Shown here: one piece after another, positions 12,072 through 18,848 of the stretch
Layout: every line of letters begins with the position of its first letter
Numbering within the stretch: the first letter of the stretch is position 1
Source of the DNA: a virus
Length of the DNA stretch: 20,985 bases
Virus record (IMG/VR): IMGVR_UViG_3300004448_000111
Location: 1-20,985 of that record
Reading direction: 5' to 3' (one strand)
Translations under genes and position numbers: made by a program
Notes under the pieces: model-generated
Databases searched by the model: none
Seen by the model: only the letters and a program-made list of their open reading frames with translations
Told to the model about the DNA's origin: nothing

Positions 12072-12863
12072 TTAAAACGCGCCTGACGCGTTCATCCAGT
12101 CCGGCAAATGTATGGTGTTTATCTCATCCCAGCCGGTGTCATATTCTTCGTTATCTGTCGCATGCTTAATTGTGTATAGCGTTTCCATCATGCGATTATG
12201 CGCGTGCCGCAGATACATTTCGCTCATTTCGTGAACGCATACGGCGTATGGCTTTTCCTTTTCAACGCAAATAAACATGAACTGCTTTATGCGTAATCCT
12301 TCTAAATTAAGGCAATGCAGATAAAACGCCGCTTGTATGTCGTAGCCAAAATTCCTGACCGCTCGGTCAAATCCTTTAGGCGATGCATCAACGCACGTCT
12401 TTATATCTATTGCCATGCTTTGCTTAACCAGCAATCCATCTGGGCGTGTTTTGAGCGGCAAATCTAAATCTGGATCTGTCACGAAAAATGATGCTTCTGC
12501 AATTAGATCAGAATGCGTCAGCAGATGATGCGCAACGTTGTGCTGCAATACAGACTGCGCCATATCTATGCTTTGCTTGTATTCGGCTTCCGGCAAAAGC
12601 ACAGCGCCAGCTTTGTCGGCGTCTTCTTTTGCCTGCTTCCATTCTTTGCCGCGCCTAGTTTCCGGCCCGCATCTGACTAGGTTTTTTTCTGGTTCTAGCA
12701 AATGCGCGTGGACTGCGCTGCCAAGATCAAACGCGGCGCTTTCTTTACGCTCCTGACCCTTCCAATGCGCCAGCGATTTGCTGCTTACAGTTTTTACGTC
12801 CGACGATGATATTGCCGGATCTAAATGATATGCCTCGTTGGACATGTCCTTGCGCATAACCAT
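12072..12863 (-). CDS. RecE-like / PD-(D/E)xK exonuclease
   Basis: A 263-residue nuclease. Motifs in order: YHLDPAISSSDVKTVSSKSL (12-31), FDLGSAVHAHLLEP (45-58, with H53), the acidic E123 and KTRPDGLL (138-145, D142). These lead to AIDIKT (151-156, D153 and K155), the PD-(D/E)xK core, then GYDIQAAFYL (173-182), the RecB-family QxxxY motif. This is the layout of exonuclease VIII C-terminal domains (DUF3799) that resect double-strand ends for phage recombination. GAAGGGGAAGGG lies upstream of the start, which overlaps the resolvase stop (TAATG). No annealase (RecT/Beta) is recognised next door, so the single-strand-binding protein may be its partner. Confidence 0.93.
   Translation of the reverse strand: MVMRKDMSNEAYHLDPAISSSDVKTVSSKSLAHWKGQERKESAAFDLGSAVHAHLLEPEKNLVRCGPETRRGKEWKQAKEDADKAGAVLLPEAEYKQSIDMAQSVLQHNVAHHLLTHSDLIAEASFFVTDPDLDLPLKTRPDGLLVKQSMAIDIKTCVDASPKGFDRAVRNFGYDIQAAFYLHCLNLEGLRIKQFMFICVEKEKPYAVCVHEMSEMYLRHAHNRMMETLYTIKHATDNEEYDTGWDEINTIHLPDWMNASGAF
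12356..12369. repeat. TGACCGCTCGGTCA perfect dyad inside the exonuclease gene
   Basis: Arms TGACCG and CGGTCA flank CT. It shares TGACC(N4)GGTCA with the sites at 6315-6328 and 8201-8214. In a coding region this may be chance or a silencer/operator. Confidence 0.4.
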
Positions 12864-13321
12864 TACGCCCTTCCCCTTCCGTATAATGCAATTAGCAGCG
12901 CCTCAGCGCGATGCTCATGCTTTTTTAATTTTAATTCCGACGCCCGATCGGGAAACCATTGCTGCGCCAGACGTCTTGCCGCGTCTTTGTCTTTTGGCAA
13001 ATTCAGCGCGCGCTTCCAGTTGACTGGGCCTACCAACGTAAACCTTGAGCGGGAAAGCGCAACAGTAGATGTGATCTGACCAAACGCGTATCCCAGCTTA
13101 AACGTTGAGCTAACGCCCTGCTTTGGCATTGCTTGTTGCCGCTCAATCCATATGTGATCGACAGCATCACAGCTCATTATAATATCGTTTAGCGCCACGA
13201 CGTCTACGCCGCCCTCGCTATACACCGGCAAGTCATGCACCTCAGACCATGTGTCTGTGATAAGCGCTACGCCGCCGGTACGATATCCGCAGTCTATGCC
13301 AATGGTTACGGGATCGCTCAT
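12863..13321 (-). CDS. RuvC-like Holliday junction resolvase
   Basis: A 152-residue protein of the RNase H-like RuvC fold. The first strand TIGIDCGYRTGGVAL carries D10. HIWIERQQ (57-63) carries E60. The C-terminal helix KHEHRAEALLIALYG carries H137 and E140, matching the last two acidic positions of RuvC (the H substitution occurs in some resolvases). SSTFKLGYAFGQI and VGPVNWKRALNL are typical connecting motifs. It would cut branched DNA made by phage recombination and replication before packaging. AAGGA precedes the start. A stem-loop spanning 13321-13357 encloses this site. Confidence 0.9.
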   Translation of the reverse strand: MSDPVTIGIDCGYRTGGVALITDTWSEVHDLPVYSEGGVDVVALNDIIMSCDAVDHIWIERQQAMPKQGVSSTFKLGYAFGQITSTVALSRSRFTLVGPVNWKRALNLPKDKDAARRLAQQWFPDRASELKLKKHEHRAEALLIALYGRGRA

Positions 13322-13357
13322 GGTTGAGTCCTTATTCAGTTAAAGGTTGCTCAACCA
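13321..13357 (-). promoter_or_regulatory. Stem-loop over the resolvase ribosome-binding site
   Basis: On the mRNA, TGGTTGAG (13357-13350) pairs with CTCAACCA (13328-13321). The AAGGA site is in the 21-nt loop, and the A of the ATG closes the stem. The upstream arm is part of the regulator's coding end. Could couple resolvase translation to that of the regulator. Confidence 0.45.
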
Positions 13358-13496
13358 CAATATCGTGCTTCGCTAAGAAGTCACGCAGCGCCATTTCTAC
13401 TGTTGCCGCCTTTGTCATACGCGTCTTATCCTTATACAAGTCCAATCCCGCAATCACCTCTGGCCGCACGCGCACCAATAACTGTTGAAGCTCCAT
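13332..13496 (-). CDS. Ribbon-helix-helix transcription regulator, 54 residues
   Basis: From the ATG at 13496 (AAGGAG seven nt upstream; an earlier ATG at 13502 is only one base from it) the product starts MELQQLLVRVRPEVIAGLDL. It continues YKDKTRMTKAATVEMALRDF and LAKHDIVVEQPLTE. A short beta-strand (LLVRVRP), helix A (VIAGLDLYKDK), a turn with TRMTK and helix B (AATVEMALRDFLAKH) are the MetJ/Arc/CopG ribbon-helix-helix pattern. It would dimerise and bind DNA. It is the first gene of the leftward operon, next to the divergent promoter region, so autoregulation there is likely but inferred. Confidence 0.75.
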   Translation of the reverse strand: MELQQLLVRVRPEVIAGLDLYKDKTRMTKAATVEMALRDFLAKHDIVVEQPLTE

Positions 13497-13560
13497 TTTC
13501 ATTCTCCTTCTGTAGCCTGATTGGAACAGCTACAGATAAACATATATCGTGTCAATAGCA

Positions 13561-13571
13561 CTAAGATATAA
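13561..13571 (+). promoter_or_regulatory. CTAAGATATAA motif shared with 7011-7021
   Basis: The same 11 bases precede the gene at 7048 and lie in this divergent control region. Here an inverted partner, ATATCTT, follows at 13587-13593, overlapping the promoter spacer. At 7001-7019 TAAGATAT occurs twice 11 bp apart. Possible operator of the ribbon-helix-helix protein. Confidence 0.45.
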
Positions 13572-13579
13572 ATTAATTG

Positions 13580-13608
13580 TTGACAGATATCTTTTAGATA
13601 AATTATAA
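13580..13608 (+). promoter_or_regulatory. Strong sigma70-type promoter for the rightward operon
   Basis: A consensus TTGACA (13580-13585), a 17-bp spacer and TTATAA (13603-13608; TATAAG one base on) precede the gene at 13659 by about 50 bp. An AGATATCT palindrome overlaps the spacer, where a repressor would block RNA polymerase. On the other strand, TTGACA also appears at 13537-13532 facing the regulator gene, with a poorer -10. Confidence 0.75.
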
Positions 13609-13658
13609 GCAGGTTACGGACAGGCAATGACCAATTAATCTTAATAGGAGAATGCATA

Positions 13659-14201
13659 ATGAACCTTACGCACACACATGAATTTTTAATAACGCACATC
13701 ACCGACAGCGGCACAGGCTTTGGCGTGCGCACCGACAACGGCGAAAGCGTCCACATATCGCCGCGCTTATTGCAGCAGGCGCACGCAAACCTTGATGACA
13801 TTTGCAAAGGTATCATCGTGCAGAACGCCATCGAGGAGAACCGCGAGCGCACGCCGTGGGTTGCCGCCTACGTGCAGGAACGACGCGCTGCGCGTGACGT
13901 GCTGGGCGTGGCGACTGACGCGCCAGCAGAGGCCGTACAAGCGCCCACCGAGGAGCCTGAGCAGGTCGATTGGGCTGACGTCCAGCGCAAGATCATTTCG
14001 ACACTGCAAAGCGACAACGTGACGTATTGCGAGACGGCAGACATTGCTGAAGTCGTTGGCGTGGACACGCGCAAGCTGTCACAGCATCTCGAAAATATGC
14101 ACGCACGCGGCGAGATATGCAAAGCGCACGTCAATCAGCGAGCAAACCAACAGCGCGCAACCTTAGTGCTGTGGAGCATTAACGCGGATGTGTACAAATG
14201 A
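13659..14201 (+). CDS. Predicted OB-fold plus winged-helix DNA-binding protein
   Basis: A 180-residue protein with AGGAG upstream. The N-terminal 70 residues, with EFLITHITDSGTGFGVRTDN, GESVHISPRLLQ, KGIIVQNAIEENRERTPW and VAAYV, resemble a cold-shock-type OB fold (GFGxxxxDxGExVHIS, then a late V-x-N-x-E-x-R-x-TPW-A strand). An acidic Pro/Ala linker follows (about 85-105). Residues 110-180 look like a winged helix (VQRKIISTLQSDNVTYCETA, DIAEVVGVDTRKLSQHLENM, then a wing with RATLVLWSI). It is the first gene after the strong promoter and likely an early regulator or replication accessory factor. The fold call is by eye; no named family. Confidence 0.65.
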   Translation: MNLTHTHEFLITHITDSGTGFGVRTDNGESVHISPRLLQQAHANLDDICKGIIVQNAIEENRERTPWVAAYVQERRAARDVLGVATDAPAEAVQAPTEEPEQVDWADVQRKIISTLQSDNVTYCETADIAEVVGVDTRKLSQHLENMHARGEICKAHVNQRANQQRATLVLWSINADVYK

Positions 14202-14347
14202 TCTGCACGACTTGCGACGGAACCGGCTTCATCGAGTTGCCGCGTTTCGTCGATACGCCGGACAGCGACGCGTGGACAACGGTGCGCTGCCCAGAATGCC
14301 AAGACGAAGACGACTTCGACTGGCGCAATGAAGAAGAGGAAGAGTGA
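14198..14347 (+). CDS. 49-residue zinc-ribbon miniprotein
   Basis: The ATG overlaps the upstream stop (ATGA). Product: MICTTCDGTGFIELPRFVDT, then PDSDAWTTVRCPECQDEDDF and DWRNEEEEE. CTTCDGTG and CPEC are a DnaJ-type or rubredoxin-like zinc ribbon pair (C3, C6, C31, C34) with a highly acidic tail. Such proteins bind host factors or nucleic acid; the specific role is unknown. The codon context and position in a coupled series support expression. Confidence 0.7.
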   Translation: MICTTCDGTGFIELPRFVDTPDSDAWTTVRCPECQDEDDFDWRNEEEEE

Positions 14348-14350
14348 CTG

Positions 14351-14596
14351 ATGTATAATTATGAAGGCATTGTGACGCTGGCTACACTGGCAGTGACCTA
14401 TGTTGTTGCGAGGTACGCATACGAACGAGTAGCTAAGTCCAAAGGTGAGAACTCTAGTGCGGCACCTGTTATTAACGGCGACAACAATGTTATAATTCAA
14501 CAGATTTCTAGTGTTGTTGGGCAAGATCCAAAGTTCATTGAGAAAGCCTTGGAACGCAGTCTGCCCCCCACCAAACGCAAGGCATTGATCCCATGA
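14351..14596 (+). CDS. 81-residue single-pass membrane protein
   Basis: After GGAAG, the product starts MYNYEGIVTLATLAVTYVVA, a transmembrane segment at about 7-24, then RYAYERVAKSKGENSSAAPV and INGDNNVIIQQISSVVGQDP. A basic, helical end follows (KFIEKALERSLPPTKRKALI). The middle NGDNNVIIQ pattern resembles short beta-turn sequences seen in membrane-associated NTPases, but nothing else supports that. No family recognised. Base composition is more AT-rich than its neighbours (14351-14930), suggesting a small imported block. Confidence 0.65.
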   Translation: MYNYEGIVTLATLAVTYVVARYAYERVAKSKGENSSAAPVINGDNNVIIQQISSVVGQDPKFIEKALERSLPPTKRKALIP

Positions 14597-14610
14597 TAAG
14601 GAGTACAAGC

Positions 14611-14772
14611 ATGAACAAAGTAGTATGTGTACACTACATAATAGAAAGACTTAAAGCTATCGTAGAGTCTGACTTCCCACAGAGCGGGGCTAGTGAATTA
14701 CTAAGTGAGATGTACCACAACTTAGGTGTTGACGCACACAACGATTATAAGGATTACCCCTGTGATGACTAA
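14611..14772 (+). CDS. 53-residue hypothetical protein
   Basis: ATAAGGAG lies upstream. Product: MNKVVCVHYIIERLKAIVES, then DFPQSGASELLSEMYHNLGV and DAHNDYKDYPCDD. Mostly helical and acidic. It overlaps the next gene by 8 bp. No function recognised. Confidence 0.6.
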   Translation: MNKVVCVHYIIERLKAIVESDFPQSGASELLSEMYHNLGVDAHNDYKDYPCDD

Positions 14773-14929
14773 AGAAACTTGTGAAAAGTGCCGAGAATAC
14801 GGCAGCGAGCATACCTGCACTGGTAAACAGGAGCCTCATGTATGCCCTTATAGCGAGGAAATAAATGGGGATTTGACCCTGTGTGATTGCTGTGAAGAGC
14901 GTGAAGATGAATGTTGTTTATCTATATAA
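14765..14929 (+). CDS. 54-residue cysteine-rich zinc-binding protein
   Basis: Starts at the ATG at 14765, overlapping the previous stop by 8 bp, with AAGGA about 12 nt upstream; the longer frame from a GTG at 14726 is less likely. Product: MTKETCEKCREYGSEHTCTG, then KQEPHVCPYSEEINGDLTLC and DCCEEREDECCLSI. It has ten cysteines, including CEKC and CDCC, enough for two zinc sites. Its C-terminal LCDCCEEREDEC pattern is typical of tiny early phage proteins of unknown function. Confidence 0.7.
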   Translation: MTKETCEKCREYGSEHTCTGKQEPHVCPYSEEINGDLTLCDCCEEREDECCLSI

Positions 14930-14942
14930 AGGAGGAAGAGTG

Positions 14943-15035
14943 ATGACCAAGTGGACGCAAGACATCATCATCGCCGCAGCGATTGCCGCGTCGGTGCTGG
15001 GCTGGATCGGCGCCGTCAGCATGGGGTGGATGTGA
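14943..15035 (+). CDS. 30-residue membrane miniprotein
   Basis: A perfect AGGAGGAAGAG sequence precedes the ATG. Product: MTKWTQDIIIAAAIAASVLG followed by WIGAVSMGWM, one hydrophobic span with a short polar start. The stop shares one base with the next ATG (TGATG). Function unknown; the strong ribosome site favours a real gene. Confidence 0.6.
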   Translation: MTKWTQDIIIAAAIAASVLGWIGAVSMGWM

Positions 15036-15427
15036 TGAAGGTTTGCTCAAAATGTTTGCAAAAAAAGAGCAGCGACTTTTTCGCAATTGACAGGACAAAG
15101 CATGACGGGATGACCAGCCAGTGCAAGGAATGCCGCGCTGCATCTAAGCGCAAGTCTTATTTCAAGTCGGAATATGGCATTGGCGTCGAGTGGATTGACA
15201 TCACTTACAAGCAGCAAAATGGATGCTGTAAGGTGTGCGGCGAGAAATGCGAGAAGGCATCCCTTAAAGTTGACCATGTGCATGGCACCAACCCGCCGAT
15301 CTTGCGGGGCTTGCTGTGCAATAGCTGTAACTTGGATCTTGGCCGCGTTGAGGCAAACATCGCCAAATATGAAACCCTGATCGTAGAGGCAAAGCTTTCT
15401 GCGCATTACAGAGGAGAGGCGATATGA
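15035..15427 (+). CDS. Endonuclease VII-like HNH nuclease
   Basis: A 130-residue protein from the ATG at 15035. The start is fixed by the one-base overlap with the previous stop; an upstream frame extension is an artefact. An N-terminal zinc motif (CSKC at 4-7 and CKEC at 30-33) precedes a His-Me finger core: CCKVCGEKC (64-72), LKVDHVHGT (78-85, D80 and H81) and ILRGLLCNSCNLDLG (89-103). The DH-x-H, RGLLCNxCN pattern is that of phage T4 endonuclease VII, which resolves branched DNA. Such genes are also mobile homing-type nucleases in phages. It may act with, or duplicate, the RuvC-like resolvase at 12863-13321. Confidence 0.9.
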   Translation: MKVCSKCLQKKSSDFFAIDRTKHDGMTSQCKECRAASKRKSYFKSEYGIGVEWIDITYKQQNGCCKVCGEKCEKASLKVDHVHGTNPPILRGLLCNSCNLDLGRVEANIAKYETLIVEAKLSAHYRGEAI

Positions 15428-15624
15428 CCCTAGCTGAACCCGTCTTCATGGCATTCGCCGTCTTTTCATCCGTAGACGAGTGCGAAGCGTTTGCGAAATA
15501 CTACGACTTAGCGCGGATCTTTGAACCGCAATGCGTCGAGATGGGCGGCGAGGCAGAGTACCGCCGCCCGTGGCCCGACGTCAGACCACAGCCACGGCCA
15601 ACACAGGAGAATAACAATGGCTAA
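15424..15624 (+). CDS. 66-residue hypothetical protein
   Basis: AGAGGAGAGG precedes the ATG, which overlaps the nuclease stop as ATGA. Product: MTLAEPVFMAFAVFSSVDEC, EAFAKYYDLARIFEPQCVEM and a basic/proline-rich tail PDVRPQPRPTQENNNG. The first part could be a short alpha/beta domain. Function unknown. The final nine bases overlap the next gene. Confidence 0.65.
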   Translation: MTLAEPVFMAFAVFSSVDECEAFAKYYDLARIFEPQCVEMGGEAEYRRPWPDVRPQPRPTQENNNG

Positions 15625-15847
15625 ATGGGATATATCAAAACTGGAAAACAGCGCCAGCGTGGGCGCGTATATTGACGAAGATGACAGCACGCCGACGCAG
15701 CCAACGCCGCAGATGCTGGTTATGTCGATCCGGCGCAAGGCAGACATCATGCGGATGGACGCGGGGCGTGGCCCCGAGCGCCTGACGATCAAGCAGCGCG
15801 CCGAAGAGATCATGGCGCTCTGCGAGATGCTGGAGCGGCGGCTGTGA
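15617..15847 (+). CDS. 76-residue hypothetical protein
   Basis: Begins at the ATG at 15617, which has AGGAGA upstream and overlaps the previous stop by 8 bp; a longer frame from 15521 has no ribosome site. Product: MAKWDISKLENSASVGAYID, EDDSTPTQPTPQMLVMSIRR and a helical, basic C-terminal half (KADIMRMDAGRGPERLTIKQ, RAEEIMALCEMLERRL). It may be an accessory or regulator of the methyltransferase that follows; this is only a positional inference. Confidence 0.65.
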   Translation: MAKWDISKLENSASVGAYIDEDDSTPTQPTPQMLVMSIRRKADIMRMDAGRGPERLTIKQRAEEIMALCEMLERRL

Positions 15848-17166
15848 GCGCTCTACGATATGGCAGCGTTTGCTCTGGCGTAGAAGCCGCAACTGTCGCA
15901 TGGCACCCGCTTGGCTGGGAGCCGCAGTGGTTTAGCGAAATCGAAAAGTTCCCTAGCGCAGTGCTTGCGCATCACCACCCAAACACGCCAAACTTAGGCG
16001 ACATGACAGCTTTTAAGGAGTGGCCCAATGACCCAATCGACCTTCTTGTTGGGGGAACCCCCTGCCAAAGCTTCTCAGTCGCTGGACTTCGCAAAGGACT
16101 TAGTGACCCACGCGGGAACCTTATGCTCACCTATCTTGCCATTGCTGCACAATATCAGCCCAAGTGGTTGGTTTGGGAGAACGTCCCCGGCGTCCTGTCT
16201 AGCCAACGAGGACGGGATTTTGGAACCTTCCTCGGGGCGCTGGGCCAGCTCGGGTATGGGTTCGCCTACAGAGTGCTTGACGCTCAATACTTCGGAGTGG
16301 CCCAGCGACGCCGCCGTGTGTTCGTTGTCGGACACCTTGGAGACTGGAAGCGTGCCGCAGCGGTTCTTTTTGAGCGCGAAAGCCTGTCAGGGCATCCTGC
16401 GCCGAGCCGAGAAGCGGGGCAAAAAGCTGCCCCAACAGTTACACAAGGCGCTCCATTCAGTCGCACAGGAAACGAGCGAGTAGAGGCGGAGGCATATGTG
16501 CCGCAAAGCACTGGCAGCGCATACGATCCGACGATGGAGACTTTGCCTGTCATTACTGGTTCGCTTTGCGCCAGAACGGGCCAATCTATTAGCGTGCAAG
16601 ATGCGGCTCAGTCACACTTGCTGCCAATAGCCTTCGGCGCACAGAACAGCGCAAGCCAAGGCGACAGTGTGTCAACGAAAGTCACGCCAACGCTGGATAA
16701 AAGCAAGACGCCAGTGGTTTTGTATCAAGACAGCCAGTTTGGAGTTTCTGAATATGAAAGCGCAGGGACTCTTAGAGCTGGGCGCATCCCTGAGCATCAA
16801 ATGGTTATTGATCATGTCACACCAACGCTGGACAAGAGCAAGACGCCAGCGGTGGCTACGCATTCCGTCGCTGGAACAATGCTTTCAAGAAATACATCTG
16901 GCGGCTTTAGCAACAGTATTGACCACGCGGCGGCTGGATATATGGCTATGCAAGCCAGCGCAGTACGCCGCCTAACGCCAGTAGAATGCGAGCGTCTGCA
17001 GGGCTTTCCCGACAACTACACGCAGATACCGTGGCGCAACAAAACGCCAGAGAATTGCCCAGATGGGCCTCGCTACAAAGCTATGGGCAACTCAATGGCT
17101 GTGCCTGTGATGCGCTGGATTGGCGAGCGGATCAACATGGTAAACAGCATTGGAGAAAAGCTATGA
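15844..17166 (+). CDS. DNA cytosine-C5 methyltransferase
   Basis: A 440-residue Dcm-type enzyme from a GTG at 15844 (GGAG upstream, stop overlap GTGA). Motif I is YGSVCSGVEAAT (6-17), and motif IV GGTPCQSFS (70-78) contains the catalytic Cys74. Motif VI is WENVPG (111-116), motif VIII is AQRRRR (153-158), and the late motifs are RLTPVECERLQGFPDNYT and KAMGNSMAVPV. All catalytic motifs are intact. It would methylate cytosine in a short sequence, protecting phage DNA from restriction or partnering a nuclease. Between motifs VIII and IX lies a variable stretch with two near-identical VTPTLDKSKTP segments, usual in phage enzymes that carry multiple PTL repeats. No classic restriction partner is recognised, though two PD-(D/E)xK genes follow. 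Confidence 0.96.
   Translation: MSALRYGSVCSGVEAATVAWHPLGWEPQWFSEIEKFPSAVLAHHHPNTPNLGDMTAFKEWPNDPIDLLVGGTPCQSFSVAGLRKGLSDPRGNLMLTYLAIAAQYQPKWLVWENVPGVLSSQRGRDFGTFLGALGQLGYGFAYRVLDAQYFGVAQRRRRVFVVGHLGDWKRAAAVLFERESLSGHPAPSREAGQKAAPTVTQGAPFSRTGNERVEAEAYVPQSTGSAYDPTMETLPVITGSLCARTGQSISVQDAAQSHLLPIAFGAQNSASQGDSVSTKVTPTLDKSKTPVVLYQDSQFGVSEYESAGTLRAGRIPEHQMVIDHVTPTLDKSKTPAVATHSVAGTMLSRNTSGGFSNSIDHAAAGYMAMQASAVRRLTPVECERLQGFPDNYTQIPWRNKTPENCPDGPRYKAMGNSMAVPVMRWIGERINMVNSIGEKL
16681..16851 (+). repeat. Direct repeat in the methyltransferase variable region
   Basis: About 36 bases at 16681-16716 and 16816-16851 encode VTPTLDKSKTP(V/A)V and differ at only a few third or second positions. The copies are 135 bp (45 codons) apart in the target-recognition part. 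They look like a recent duplication or a site for gene rearrangement. Confidence 0.8.
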
Positions 17167-17495
17167 CGGAAAACATGACACCGCTGGAACGCTGGAAGGA
17201 GCTGGCGATCATCGAGAACGCGCGCATGAAGCGCAGGCTCATTGGCCGCGATGACATGCACGCGTATGCCCATAAGCCGTGGCCGCTGGAAGTGCTGCGC
17301 AAGGAGATTAAGCGCTGCCTGAGCAAGCATGGCGAGCTGTCGGTGGGCGACTTGTGCAGCATGATCGAGCAGGACGCCGTGCATATCGACATTGGGCTGA
17401 AGACCATGCGGGAGCGGCGCACAATCGTGAAGACGTCGTTTATCGAGGGCCAGCAACTGTACCGCCTGCGCACGCAGGAAGAGTTTGCGTTCTAA
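17163..17495 (+). CDS. Winged-helix-like protein, 110 residues
   Basis: The ATG at 17163 overlaps the methyltransferase stop (ATGA), with GGAG nine nt upstream. An N-terminal helical stretch, TPLERWKELAIIENARMKRR, is followed by a domain of about 60 residues: EVLRKEIKRCLSKHGELSVG, DLCSMIEQDAVHIDIGLKTM and a wing with IVKTSFIEGQQLYRLR. Its shape is close to the C-terminal domain of the protein at 13659-14201. It may regulate the modification/nuclease genes or recognise DNA for them; this is inferred from fold and position. Confidence 0.6.
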   Translation: MTENMTPLERWKELAIIENARMKRRLIGRDDMHAYAHKPWPLEVLRKEIKRCLSKHGELSVGDLCSMIEQDAVHIDIGLKTMRERRTIVKTSFIEGQQLYRLRTQEEFAF

Positions 17496-18001
17496 TGCTA
17501 ATCAAGCTCACAGATAAGGATATGGCTGATTGCCGCCAAAGCGCTAATTTGCGCTCAACACTTGCGCGGGCCAGCGGCATAGTAAATCAGCAACGCGATA
17601 CGCGCAGAGGCGTTGATCTGGATTTCCTTGGCATACGCTCAGAAGTTGCTGTCGCAAAGCTTTATGACGTTTCATATAATCCCAACACGCTGGGCGTAGA
17701 TGACGGCGTTGATTTATGGCTTGGCGAAATAAGCATAGACGTTAAGTCTACGTTTTACCCGACAGGCCAGCTTTTGTTCAAATCGCTTGAAGCGTTCAAA
17801 TCACGCGCTGCGGTGCTTGTGACAAAAACAGATGACGAAAATGTGATGGATGTTGCTGGCTGCATATCACGCAAGGCATTTGTCGAAAAAGCAATGCAAA
17901 CTGATTTAGGTAAGGGGAAATGCTTTGTTATGCCGCAAGATCAACTATGGGGCGTTGAGGAGCTTTGGCGGTCATATAAGTGCGAGCAACTTTGCCCGTA
18001 G
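17495..18001 (+). CDS. PD-(D/E)xK-like nuclease, candidate 1
   Basis: A 168-residue protein from an ATG that overlaps the previous stop by one base (TAATG). It has GIRSEVAVAKLYDV (E50), then GVDDGVDLWLGEISIDVKST, with D73 and the D82-x-K84 pair, then FKSLEAFKSRAAVLVTKT. An acidic residue on a helix, D on a strand, then (D/E)xK on the next strand is the PD-(D/E)xK nuclease signature of restriction, repair and resolvase enzymes. A DIVKVKS-type variant is read here as IDVKST. Its neighbours (C5 methyltransferase and a second nuclease) raise the possibility of a restriction-like unit, but it may equally be a DNA-processing enzyme of the phage. Experimental function unknown. Confidence 0.7.
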   Translation: MLIKLTDKDMADCRQSANLRSTLARASGIVNQQRDTRRGVDLDFLGIRSEVAVAKLYDVSYNPNTLGVDDGVDLWLGEISIDVKSTFYPTGQLLFKSLEAFKSRAAVLVTKTDDENVMDVAGCISRKAFVEKAMQTDLGKGKCFVMPQDQLWGVEELWRSYKCEQLCP

Positions 18002-18033
18002 TAACATTATGATATTTATAGTATATTCCGGCT

Positions 18034-18396
18034 GTGGCCAACAGCATCAACGTCGGTCGTGCTGGCGAGTTTCTCGTCGCAGCCGAGCTTGAGCAGCGCG
18101 GAATACGCTGCCATCGGGTAGACATGCAGGACGACGACCTATGGGTGAAGTCGGCCAGCGGTGAGCTATTGACGATGCAAGTGAAGGCGACCCTTGAGCC
18201 GCGCGCTGATCGCAGGCGCAAGGCGTGTTATATGTTCACGCGCGCAAATGGCGATGCGCACATATTTGCGTATGTGGCGCTGGATATACGATTGTTTATA
18301 CTGCGCGACGCTCCGAGCGGCAAAACGGTACGCATAAAGCCCGCCGATTTTACGCGGCAGGCTATGGATGACAGCATTGAGGCGATGCTAGGTTAG
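18034..18396 (+). CDS. PD-(D/E)xK-like nuclease, candidate 2
   Basis: A 120-residue protein from a GTG at 18034. The frame has GRAGEFLVAAELEQRGI (E12), DMQDDDLWVKS (D33-D35) and LLTMQVKAT (Q49-x-K51). The E-D-(Q)xK layout with an NxGxxGExxVAxxLxxRG start matches the PDDEXK_5 style of nucleases, where Q replaces the usual D/E in the xK motif. The gene ends in a 4-bp convergent overlap with the endolysin stop (18393-18396). There is no visible ribosome site; TATAGTATAT lies about 10 nt before the GTG, so leaderless expression is possible. Role unknown: restriction, defence or DNA clean-up. Confidence 0.65.
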   Translation: MANSINVGRAGEFLVAAELEQRGIRCHRVDMQDDDLWVKSASGELLTMQVKATLEPRADRRRKACYMFTRANGDAHIFAYVALDIRLFILRDAPSGKTVRIKPADFTRQAMDDSIEAMLG

Positions 18397-18848
18397 ACCA
18401 TCAGCTCAAAATGCGGAGCGTCAATGAACGGGCGTCTGCCCTGCCCGCGACGCGTGTCGATGTAGTCGTTCATCGCGTCCTCCATCGTGCAATCCCACTG
18501 CGCTATATTTGGCACAGTCCACGCGGCACCCCACCTGATTGGCACATCCACCTCGCGCGCAGCTTCTGCCATCGCATCGGCTATATCGTCATACAAATTC
18601 AGCTCCCACGATCCACGCGGGCCAACATAGGCCATGAGATCGACGGCCAACCCGTCTATGTGCTTCGACTTCATCGTCTGCGACGCGCCGCTTTTCACAA
18701 GCTCGCGCTGCTCCTCGATGGTGCGAAGCCCGCATATGACGCCGAAGTCGATCTTGGTTCTGTGAATTGCGCTGGTGACGACAGACGCCATGCGCTCGTC
18801 TACGCCTGACAGCTTATCGCGGCTGCGTGCTGATAGTTTAAACGTCAT
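18393..18848 (-). CDS. Endolysin, M15-type L-alanyl-D-glutamate or D-Ala-D-Ala peptidase
   Basis: A 151-residue enzyme from the ATG at 18848, which overlaps the holin stop (ATGA); an upstream frame extension has no support. Motifs: TKIDFGVICGLRTIEEQREL, KSGASQTMKSKHIDGLAVDL (first zinc ligands His and Asp) and HFELMV at the end (HxE, with the final zinc ligand and catalytic acid). This matches the VanY/T5 lys-type peptidase fold, which cleaves peptidoglycan peptides at lysis. No signal peptide is seen, so release depends on the adjacent holin. It lies last in the leftward lysis cassette. Confidence 0.93.
   Translation of the reverse strand: MTFKLSARSRDKLSGVDERMASVVTSAIHRTKIDFGVICGLRTIEEQRELVKSGASQTMKSKHIDGLAVDLMAYVGPRGSWELNLYDDIADAMAEAAREVDVPIRWGAAWTVPNIAQWDCTMEDAMNDYIDTRRGQGRRPFIDAPHFELMV

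Follow-up and report, generated by a model that had tools for sequence, protein, structure and literature searches.

The window analyzed here, the whole stretch of DNA at hand, comprises positions 1-20,985 (20,985 nt, 52% G+C) of IMG/VR virus record IMGVR_UViG_3300004448_000111. Its minus strand carries genes matching terminase and replication/recombination families, and the plus strand is used for a block of genes at 13659-18396, past which the genes lie on the minus strand again and, judged by position, may be of the lysis type. Toward the end of this block stand a C5-cytosine DNA methyltransferase (MTase), a conserved protein that may be a winged helix (WH) and two small predicted PD-(D/E)xK nucleases, here called N1 and N2. 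MTase, N1 and N2 come and go independently in related phages and are probably neighbors, not one system. The features concerned are as follows (locus groups A to C are defined below).

13642..17494, plus strand: accessory cassette, from the gene at 13659 to WH; edges approximate (blastn homology edges in 18 chosen loci, gene order and orientation)
15844..17166, plus strand: MTase, 440-aa C5-cytosine DNA methyltransferase, an optional cargo gene flanked by those at 15599 and 17163 (PF00145, E 4.8e-55; NCBIfam dcm superfamily, E 7.2e-54)
16414..16962, plus strand: variable, target-recognition-like region of MTase (alignment of 8 alleles)
17163..17495, plus strand: WH, conserved protein of 110 aa, possible winged helix, final conserved gene of the cassette (68 related contigs; weak helix-turn-helix (HTH) matches; dN/dS 0.063)
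17495..18001, plus strand: N1, predicted PD-(D/E)xK nuclease of 168 aa with E50, D73 and D82-x-K84 (fold model; phrog_18407 match)
18020..18033, plus strand: short stretch ahead of N2 at which groups A and B become homologous again; by eye, it holds an AT-rich sequence like a -10 element, with no space for a leader
18034..18396, plus strand: N2, predicted PD-(D/E)xK nuclease of 120 aa with E12, D35 and Q49-x-K51 (fold model; I-Ssp6803I match)
18199..18237, plus strand: hypervariable hairpin of N2, aa 56-68 (dN/dS 0.39; per-site entropy)

MTase and WH overlap through ATGA and WH and N1 through TAATG, whereas N2 begins 32 nt past N1 with a GTG codon, a start shared by the window and the 22 relatives of groups A-C whose upstream sequences were compared. 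Coordinates, ATGA overlap and active-site residues of the four genes agree with those of a preliminary description of the locus. A sigma-70 scan reported no promoter ahead of N2, so the -10-like stretch was read by eye.

To follow the genes in other phages, three IMG/VR searches were made, which gave 32 N1, 65 N2 and 68 WH contigs (loci are cited by L numbers). Most contigs are fragments, those with N1 being 4-23 kb long, and N1 contigs are counted as 31, L031 being omitted as a different phage. L092 is identical to the window across these genes and perhaps represents the same phage. A profile scan (A2) recovered the same 32 N1 loci and found no relatives in bacterial genomes. For N2, a profile scan of viral contigs gave 236 relatives, the best 80 of which were kept; the 65 contigs plus those in WH loci were classified.

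The WH contigs fall into three groups. In group A (28/68) the cassette is forward and N1 immediately follows WH. In group B (32/68) N1 is missing and the cassette has the opposite orientation with respect to the resolvase or N2; this count consists of 30 contigs plus L110 and L131, in which the inversion is shown via loci L077 and L054, and in seven contigs only the resolvase side is visible. Group C (8/68) has a WH 67-70% identical, a forward cassette and WH followed by N2 with no N1. None of the 40 group B and C contigs gave an N1 match, and the same search recovered N1 in all ten positive controls. Among the 65 N2 contigs, N1 precedes N2 in 29, the inverted cassette does so in 30, WH stands straight before N2 without N1 in 5 (L087-L091) and the arrangement is not visible in one (L066). 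N2 itself is present in 59 of the 68 WH contigs (56 within WH loci and three through further loci of the same contigs), and the remaining nine end before or within its place. Thus, no empty N2 site was seen among the 59 contigs where that place is in view.

In four of the eight group C contigs a C5 MTase lies between WH and N2. At L142 4341-5357 (also in L144, L145 and L146) this is another C5 MTase, at the junction that N1 occupies in group A. In L141, L142, L087 and L088, all of group C, an inverted sequence seen by eye (ATACCGC ... GCGGTAT) abuts the N2 start codon, where a terminator or operator might lie.

The preliminary description had proposed that MTase, a recognition module and one or two nucleases make up a restriction-modification (RM) or phage exclusion system, and that the genes should then travel together. 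They do not. MTase adjoins WH in only 10 of the 68 related contigs: 3/28 with N1 (one being L092) versus 6/39 without (Fisher p 0.72), a table from which L149 is omitted since the place of N1 is out of view there. Counting any PF00145 gene in the whole contig, the figures were 3/31 versus 11/40 (p 0.08, not significant). The MTase slot was visible and free of MTase in 25 of the 28 N1 contigs, and none of the seven N2 contigs of 34-41 kb had a PF00145 gene. An N6/N4 MTase was found in one of ten contigs tested, which is one of the seven long N2 contigs, and a Dam-family MTase in none of the ten; the search covered the C5, N6/N4 and Dam families only. A nuclease kept together with a protecting MTase was therefore not found, and given that N1 and N2 occur largely without a C5 MTase, a nuclease that depends on MTase to spare its own DNA is unlikely. 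PADLOC models gave no match to N1, N2 or WH at E<=1; MTase matches MTase models and the gene at 13659 has a weak HTH match.

N1 has the motif E50, D73, D82-V-K84, and E50, D69, D73, D82 and K84 are invariant in 15 aligned sequences, just one of which is distant (49%). The best of five fold models has a mean pLDDT of 80.2. Its VIA Z scores were 9.2 with the Eco15I N-terminal domain, 9.0 with I-Ssp6803I, 8.8 with NhoI and 8.2 with viral D212; further PDB structures were Hjc (7.9), the SPARDA DREN domain (7.1) and DpnI (7.0). We take the top PDB structures to be members of the PD-(D/E)xK superfamily. The modeled core together with the motif is consistent with membership of that superfamily, and hence N1 is probably a PD-(D/E)xK nuclease. 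Against a viral model library N1 matched 51 models at E<=0.001, and the 50 listed are mainly uncharacterized phage proteins, one of them a DUF5843 protein. N1 matches phrog_18407 over nearly its full length (E 1.4e-6). The phrog_18407/DUF5843-like viral proteins resemble N1 almost end to end and have no assigned function; a full-text literature search found no mention of DUF5843. The DUF5843 model itself (PF19161) scores N1 at 17 bits and the L031 homologue at 22.5 bits, below its curated cut-off of 25.

N1 evolves under purifying selection (mean dN / mean dS = 0.044). In this and the other whole-gene dN/dS values, pairs with dS <=0.02 or >=2 were excluded and at most 300 random pairs per gene were used. 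There are 19 distinct N1 sequences, including the L031 homologue, which is the sole distant relative (48-50% identity); the others are 96-100% identical within their group. The L031 homologue lies among genes for a Sak annealing protein (SSAP), SSB, a NinB-like protein and a DUF968/Ref-like HNH protein, with RusA on the opposite strand. Cultured phages gave no N1 match at E<=1e-3 (those at E<=10 were at chance level) and no match to the L031 homologue at E<=0.01.

N2 has the motif E12, D33-D35, Q49-V-K51, in which E12, D35, Q49 and K51 are invariant across 18 sequences down to 38% identity. The best of five fold models reaches a mean pLDDT of 84.7, and its nearest solved structure is I-Ssp6803I (Foldseek E 1.5e-4; VIA Z 12.4, root-mean-square deviation 3.0 over 113 residues), 3 Z units ahead of the next structures, the SPARDA DREN domain (9.4) and Hjc (9.3). 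A sequence search of the PDB gave no similarity to I-Ssp6803I, the only match being a SPARDA DUF4365 protein (E 1.3). With a predicted alpha-beta core and a conserved acidic residue, aspartate and Q-x-K, N2 is probably a small PD-(D/E)xK nuclease of the I-Ssp6803I/Hjc kind. Hence the earlier assignment of both small proteins to the PD-(D/E)xK type stands: neither has a Pfam or NCBIfam match past the cut-off, but the predicted folds match the superfamily, and loss of the acidic and lysine positions was not seen in the aligned relatives.

The dN/dS of N2 is 0.19, compared with 0.02-0.14 for the other genes of the region, and N2 is under purifying selection outside a few variable stretches. The values are 0.03 for aa 2-55, 0.39 for aa 56-68 (the hairpin), 0.83 for aa 92-95 (four codons) and 0.32 for aa 111-120, none of them above 1. 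As dS is also raised in aa 56-68 and 111-120, exchange between alleles may contribute. The site profiles comprise alleles of at least 83% identity, those below being left out. The hairpin variability might reflect a shifting DNA target, escape from a host factor or relaxed constraint. Two of the 62 distinct N2 sequences are shortened. The copy at L091 4001-4321 has only 71 aa, through either disruption of the gene or an error in sequencing. A 39% N2 relative in L166 lies close to a terminase-like gene, as judged by eye from the list of open reading frames; a search of bacterial genomes with this L166 homologue as query found no relatives.

Descent of N1 and N2 from a duplication was considered and rejected: profile comparison gave E 0.042 and a probability of 1.3% over 23 columns, which hold the D-L-W ... 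V-K-(S/A)-T motif alone. The sequences suggest that the two are at most distantly related, and we treat them as distant members of one superfamily and not as paralogues.

WH is the protein between MTase and N1 as first described, and its position holds. Its identity as a winged helix is weakly supported by the sequence matches, which are to the HTH regulator 2ia0 (E 0.13) and to an ArsR-type profile (E 0.028). No Pfam model matched above its cut-off, nor did any cultured phage protein at E<=1e-3.

The C5 MTase identity given in the preliminary description is borne out by Pfam. The PCQ, ENV and QxRxR motifs, which are defining features of C5-cytosine DNA methyltransferases, are present at aa 70-77, 111-117 and 154-163. 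An alignment of eight MTase alleles of one slot (those of L018, L101, L109, L110, L111, L130 and L149 plus that of the window) showed a common catalytic frame with differing and recurring recognition-like units in its center, delimited by the alignment alone. In the window allele a V-T-P-T-L-D-K-S-K-T-P unit occurs in two copies (16681-16719 and 16816-16854). Such an organization would be expected of a multispecific orphan MTase with exchangeable recognition units, and MTase is probably of this kind.

MTase is one of several kinds of cargo. The cargo slots of the cassette contain genes for unidentified proteins and HNH, GIY-YIG, EndoVII-like, PAPS-reductase-like, queuine-transglycosylase-like, sigma-like or MTase genes. 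Examples are given here.

L130 314-991: queuine tRNA-ribosyltransferase-like protein
L020 2382-3209: PAPS-reductase-like protein
L118 2782-3399: GIY-YIG nuclease

At the ten slot-3 loci checked, the junctions consist of a GGAG/GAAG-containing stretch that terminates in an (A/G)TGA stop/start overlap. Because these short junctions are similar, otherwise unrelated cargo proteins (those of MTase and of 82-aa and 62-aa genes) share an E-K-L ending. The window has such junctions at 15835-15850 and 17150-17166, and others were noted in L100, L138, L119 and L103.

By blastn of the 18 chosen loci, groups A and B are homologous from 13635-13647 up to 17485-17495 and again from 18020 onward, so that N1 and its flanks, which lie in the gap, are specific to group A. 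The contigs with the cassette inverted relative to the flanking genes (32/68, for example L094, L103, L106, L111 and L125) have adjoining replication genes of another type (exonuclease ~42% and resolvase ~84% identical). Terminal inverted repeats as the cause of inversion were rejected on a search made within each cassette end and not between the two: none was found in 13300-13700, and 17400-18500 gave only four weak pairs (10-16 nt long, 81-100%). One pair (17497-17509/18085-18097, 85%) spans N1 and ends within N2.

Two other genes of the window bear on the interpretation.

Upstream: EndoVII-like gene (PF02945, E 6.6e-12)
12863-13321: Holliday-junction-resolvase-like gene

The EndoVII-like gene had been recognized beforehand. 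The accompanying suggestion of a DNA-processing unit survives in part: a processing role fits better than restriction, chiefly for N1, whereas a unit with the EndoVII-like gene does not hold, that gene being present in only some related loci.

The explanation we favor, with reasonable if far from complete confidence, is that a cargo slot holds an orphan MTase with an anti-restriction role, beside which stand two independent DNA-processing nucleases. MTase, whose target-recognition region differs modularly between phages, would shield the phage DNA against host restriction, and its exchangeable recognition-like units fit protection against varied host restriction enzymes. N2 would be kept by this phage group regardless of whether MTase is present, and N1 would be a second PD-(D/E)xK nuclease, which a single lineage carries between WH and N2. 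If catalytically active, the two would most likely cut DNA structures or ends in phage replication or recombination, and the company that the L031 homologue of N1 keeps with recombination genes (Sak, SSB, NinB, Ref-like and RusA) favors such a role.

Several observations weigh against this explanation. A mean pLDDT of 80 is reached by two of the five N2 models and by just one of the five for N1. In the PDB, N1 is matched best, but weakly (Foldseek E 0.02), by restriction enzymes whose entry titles mention methylated target DNA; of the 50 viral matches listed, two bear the name 'Restriction endonuclease' and one 'HNH endonuclease'. A hypervariable hairpin would be unusual in a structure-specific nuclease, and the N6/N4 MTase noted above accompanies N2 in one long contig. 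Many contigs are near-identical, so the counts are not independent events or lineages. Moreover, we know of no activity for any N1 or N2 homologue, and thus the case for DNA processing consists of a single distant N1 homologue and of fold likeness.

The alternative that survives best, which we regard as a minority possibility, is that N2 is or was a free-standing homing-type endonuclease at the cassette edge, the cuts of which promote exchange or inversion of the block. The nuclease-flanked 'HEG islands' described in PMC10448857 would be a case of similar spirit. That the nearest solved fold is a homing endonuclease, that N2 borders a block inverted in some relatives and that its hairpin is hypervariable all fit. 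However, N2 is present wherever its place is visible, occupies a comparable position in phages CRP-811 and CRP-831 (see below), is under purifying selection outside the variable stretches and showed no similarity to I-Ssp6803I in the sequence search of the PDB.

It is doubtful that N1 and/or N2 break down the host chromosome to feed phage replication. Location in the rightward accessory block and a predicted nuclease fold would suit such a function, but profile searches gave no family having it, and the way to spare the phage DNA that would be needed was not identified.

N1 could also be modification-dependent, as NhoI, Eco15I and DpnI are, and attack methylated DNA of the host or of competitors, but we consider this unlikely. 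These three enzymes are among its top PDB matches, but Foldseek E values are 0.02 at best and 0.1 for DpnI, and I-Ssp6803I and viral D212 score within 1 Z of the top. In addition, a C5 MTase co-occurs in 3 of the 31 contigs, where the DNA of the phage itself might be endangered.

A still bolder proposal, to which we give little credence, is that N2 is a boundary nuclease with a target set by its hairpin, which cuts the cassette edge in rival phages so that the block is swapped in either orientation, N1 being an added resolvase of one lineage. If true, an intron-less I-Ssp6803I-like nuclease would have become fixed in the service of phage genome plasticity and would no longer be a selfish gene.

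Finally, RM or exclusion, in which MTase would mark the phage DNA, WH recognize DNA and N1 and/or N2 cut unmarked DNA, is very improbable, and as an obligate system it is rejected on linkage: the close packing in the window, predicted activities of a suitable type and the C5 MTase beside N2 in half of group C are outweighed by the lack of a C5 MTase in 28/31 N1 contigs and in all seven N2 contigs of at least 34 kb, by the absence of PADLOC matches to WH, N1 and N2 and by an MTase center that varies with the allele while N1 is nearly constant in its group, which speaks against a shared recognition sequence.

The novel two-nuclease restriction system is therefore set aside and testable parts are put in its place: an orphan MTase with a modularly varying specificity region and, next to it, two small phage families of predicted PD-(D/E)xK nucleases, both uncharacterized, of which one has a rapidly evolving hairpin. 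The inversion of the cargo cassette between relatives is a natural experiment on phage module exchange. N1 and N2 would belong to known kinds of nuclease, and the hairpin and the inverted cassette are loose ends of moderate interest.

Relatives of N2 were found in five Roseobacter phage records. In CRP-811 and CRP-831 the homologue (40-41%) is the last rightward gene, and no MTase is annotated in the stretches examined. These phages have a helicase, SSB, a PD-(D/E)XK nuclease-like gene, a small gene and a rightward block that closes on the N2 homologue, past which lie leftward genes with lysis enzymes. Unlike the window, they gave no N1 match, and the genes ahead of N2 are without similarity to WH; CRP-406 gave no N2 match. 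CRP-811 also carries a RusA-like/PDDEXK_15 gene, and neither N1 nor N2 is the counterpart of the CRP-811 PDDEXK endonuclease, similarity being nil. We do not claim the window phage as a member of the CRP-822-type Roseobacter phages; according to PMC12629253, most of these phages that lie outside subgroup IV have a DNA MTase somewhere in the genome. The named phage records closest in the large terminase subunit are uncultured spring phages and Sinorhizobium phage phiM5.

Among characterized nucleases, I-Ssp6803I, a PD-(D/E)xK homing endonuclease of a cyanobacterial group I intron, is closest to the N2 model. N2 is unlike it in its 15% identity, in the lack of an empty site and in being a conserved gene of its own group; no intron was seen, although none was sought. 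The SPARDA DREN (DUF4365) domain resembles both proteins, N2 being a lone 120-aa domain without the APAZ part. The archaeal Hjc/Hje Holliday-junction resolvases score below or near other families with both predicted folds, and for a Hjc-like role of N2 it must be considered that the window already has a resolvase-like gene. The Eco15I N-terminal domain, NhoI and DpnI, solved with methylated target DNA, are among the best matches of N1 at 9-18% identity. MTase compares with multispecific C5 MTases of phages, for example the SPbeta-group enzymes, in that it combines a single catalytic frame with a variable multi-unit central region; its units, defined by alignment only, may set its specificity.

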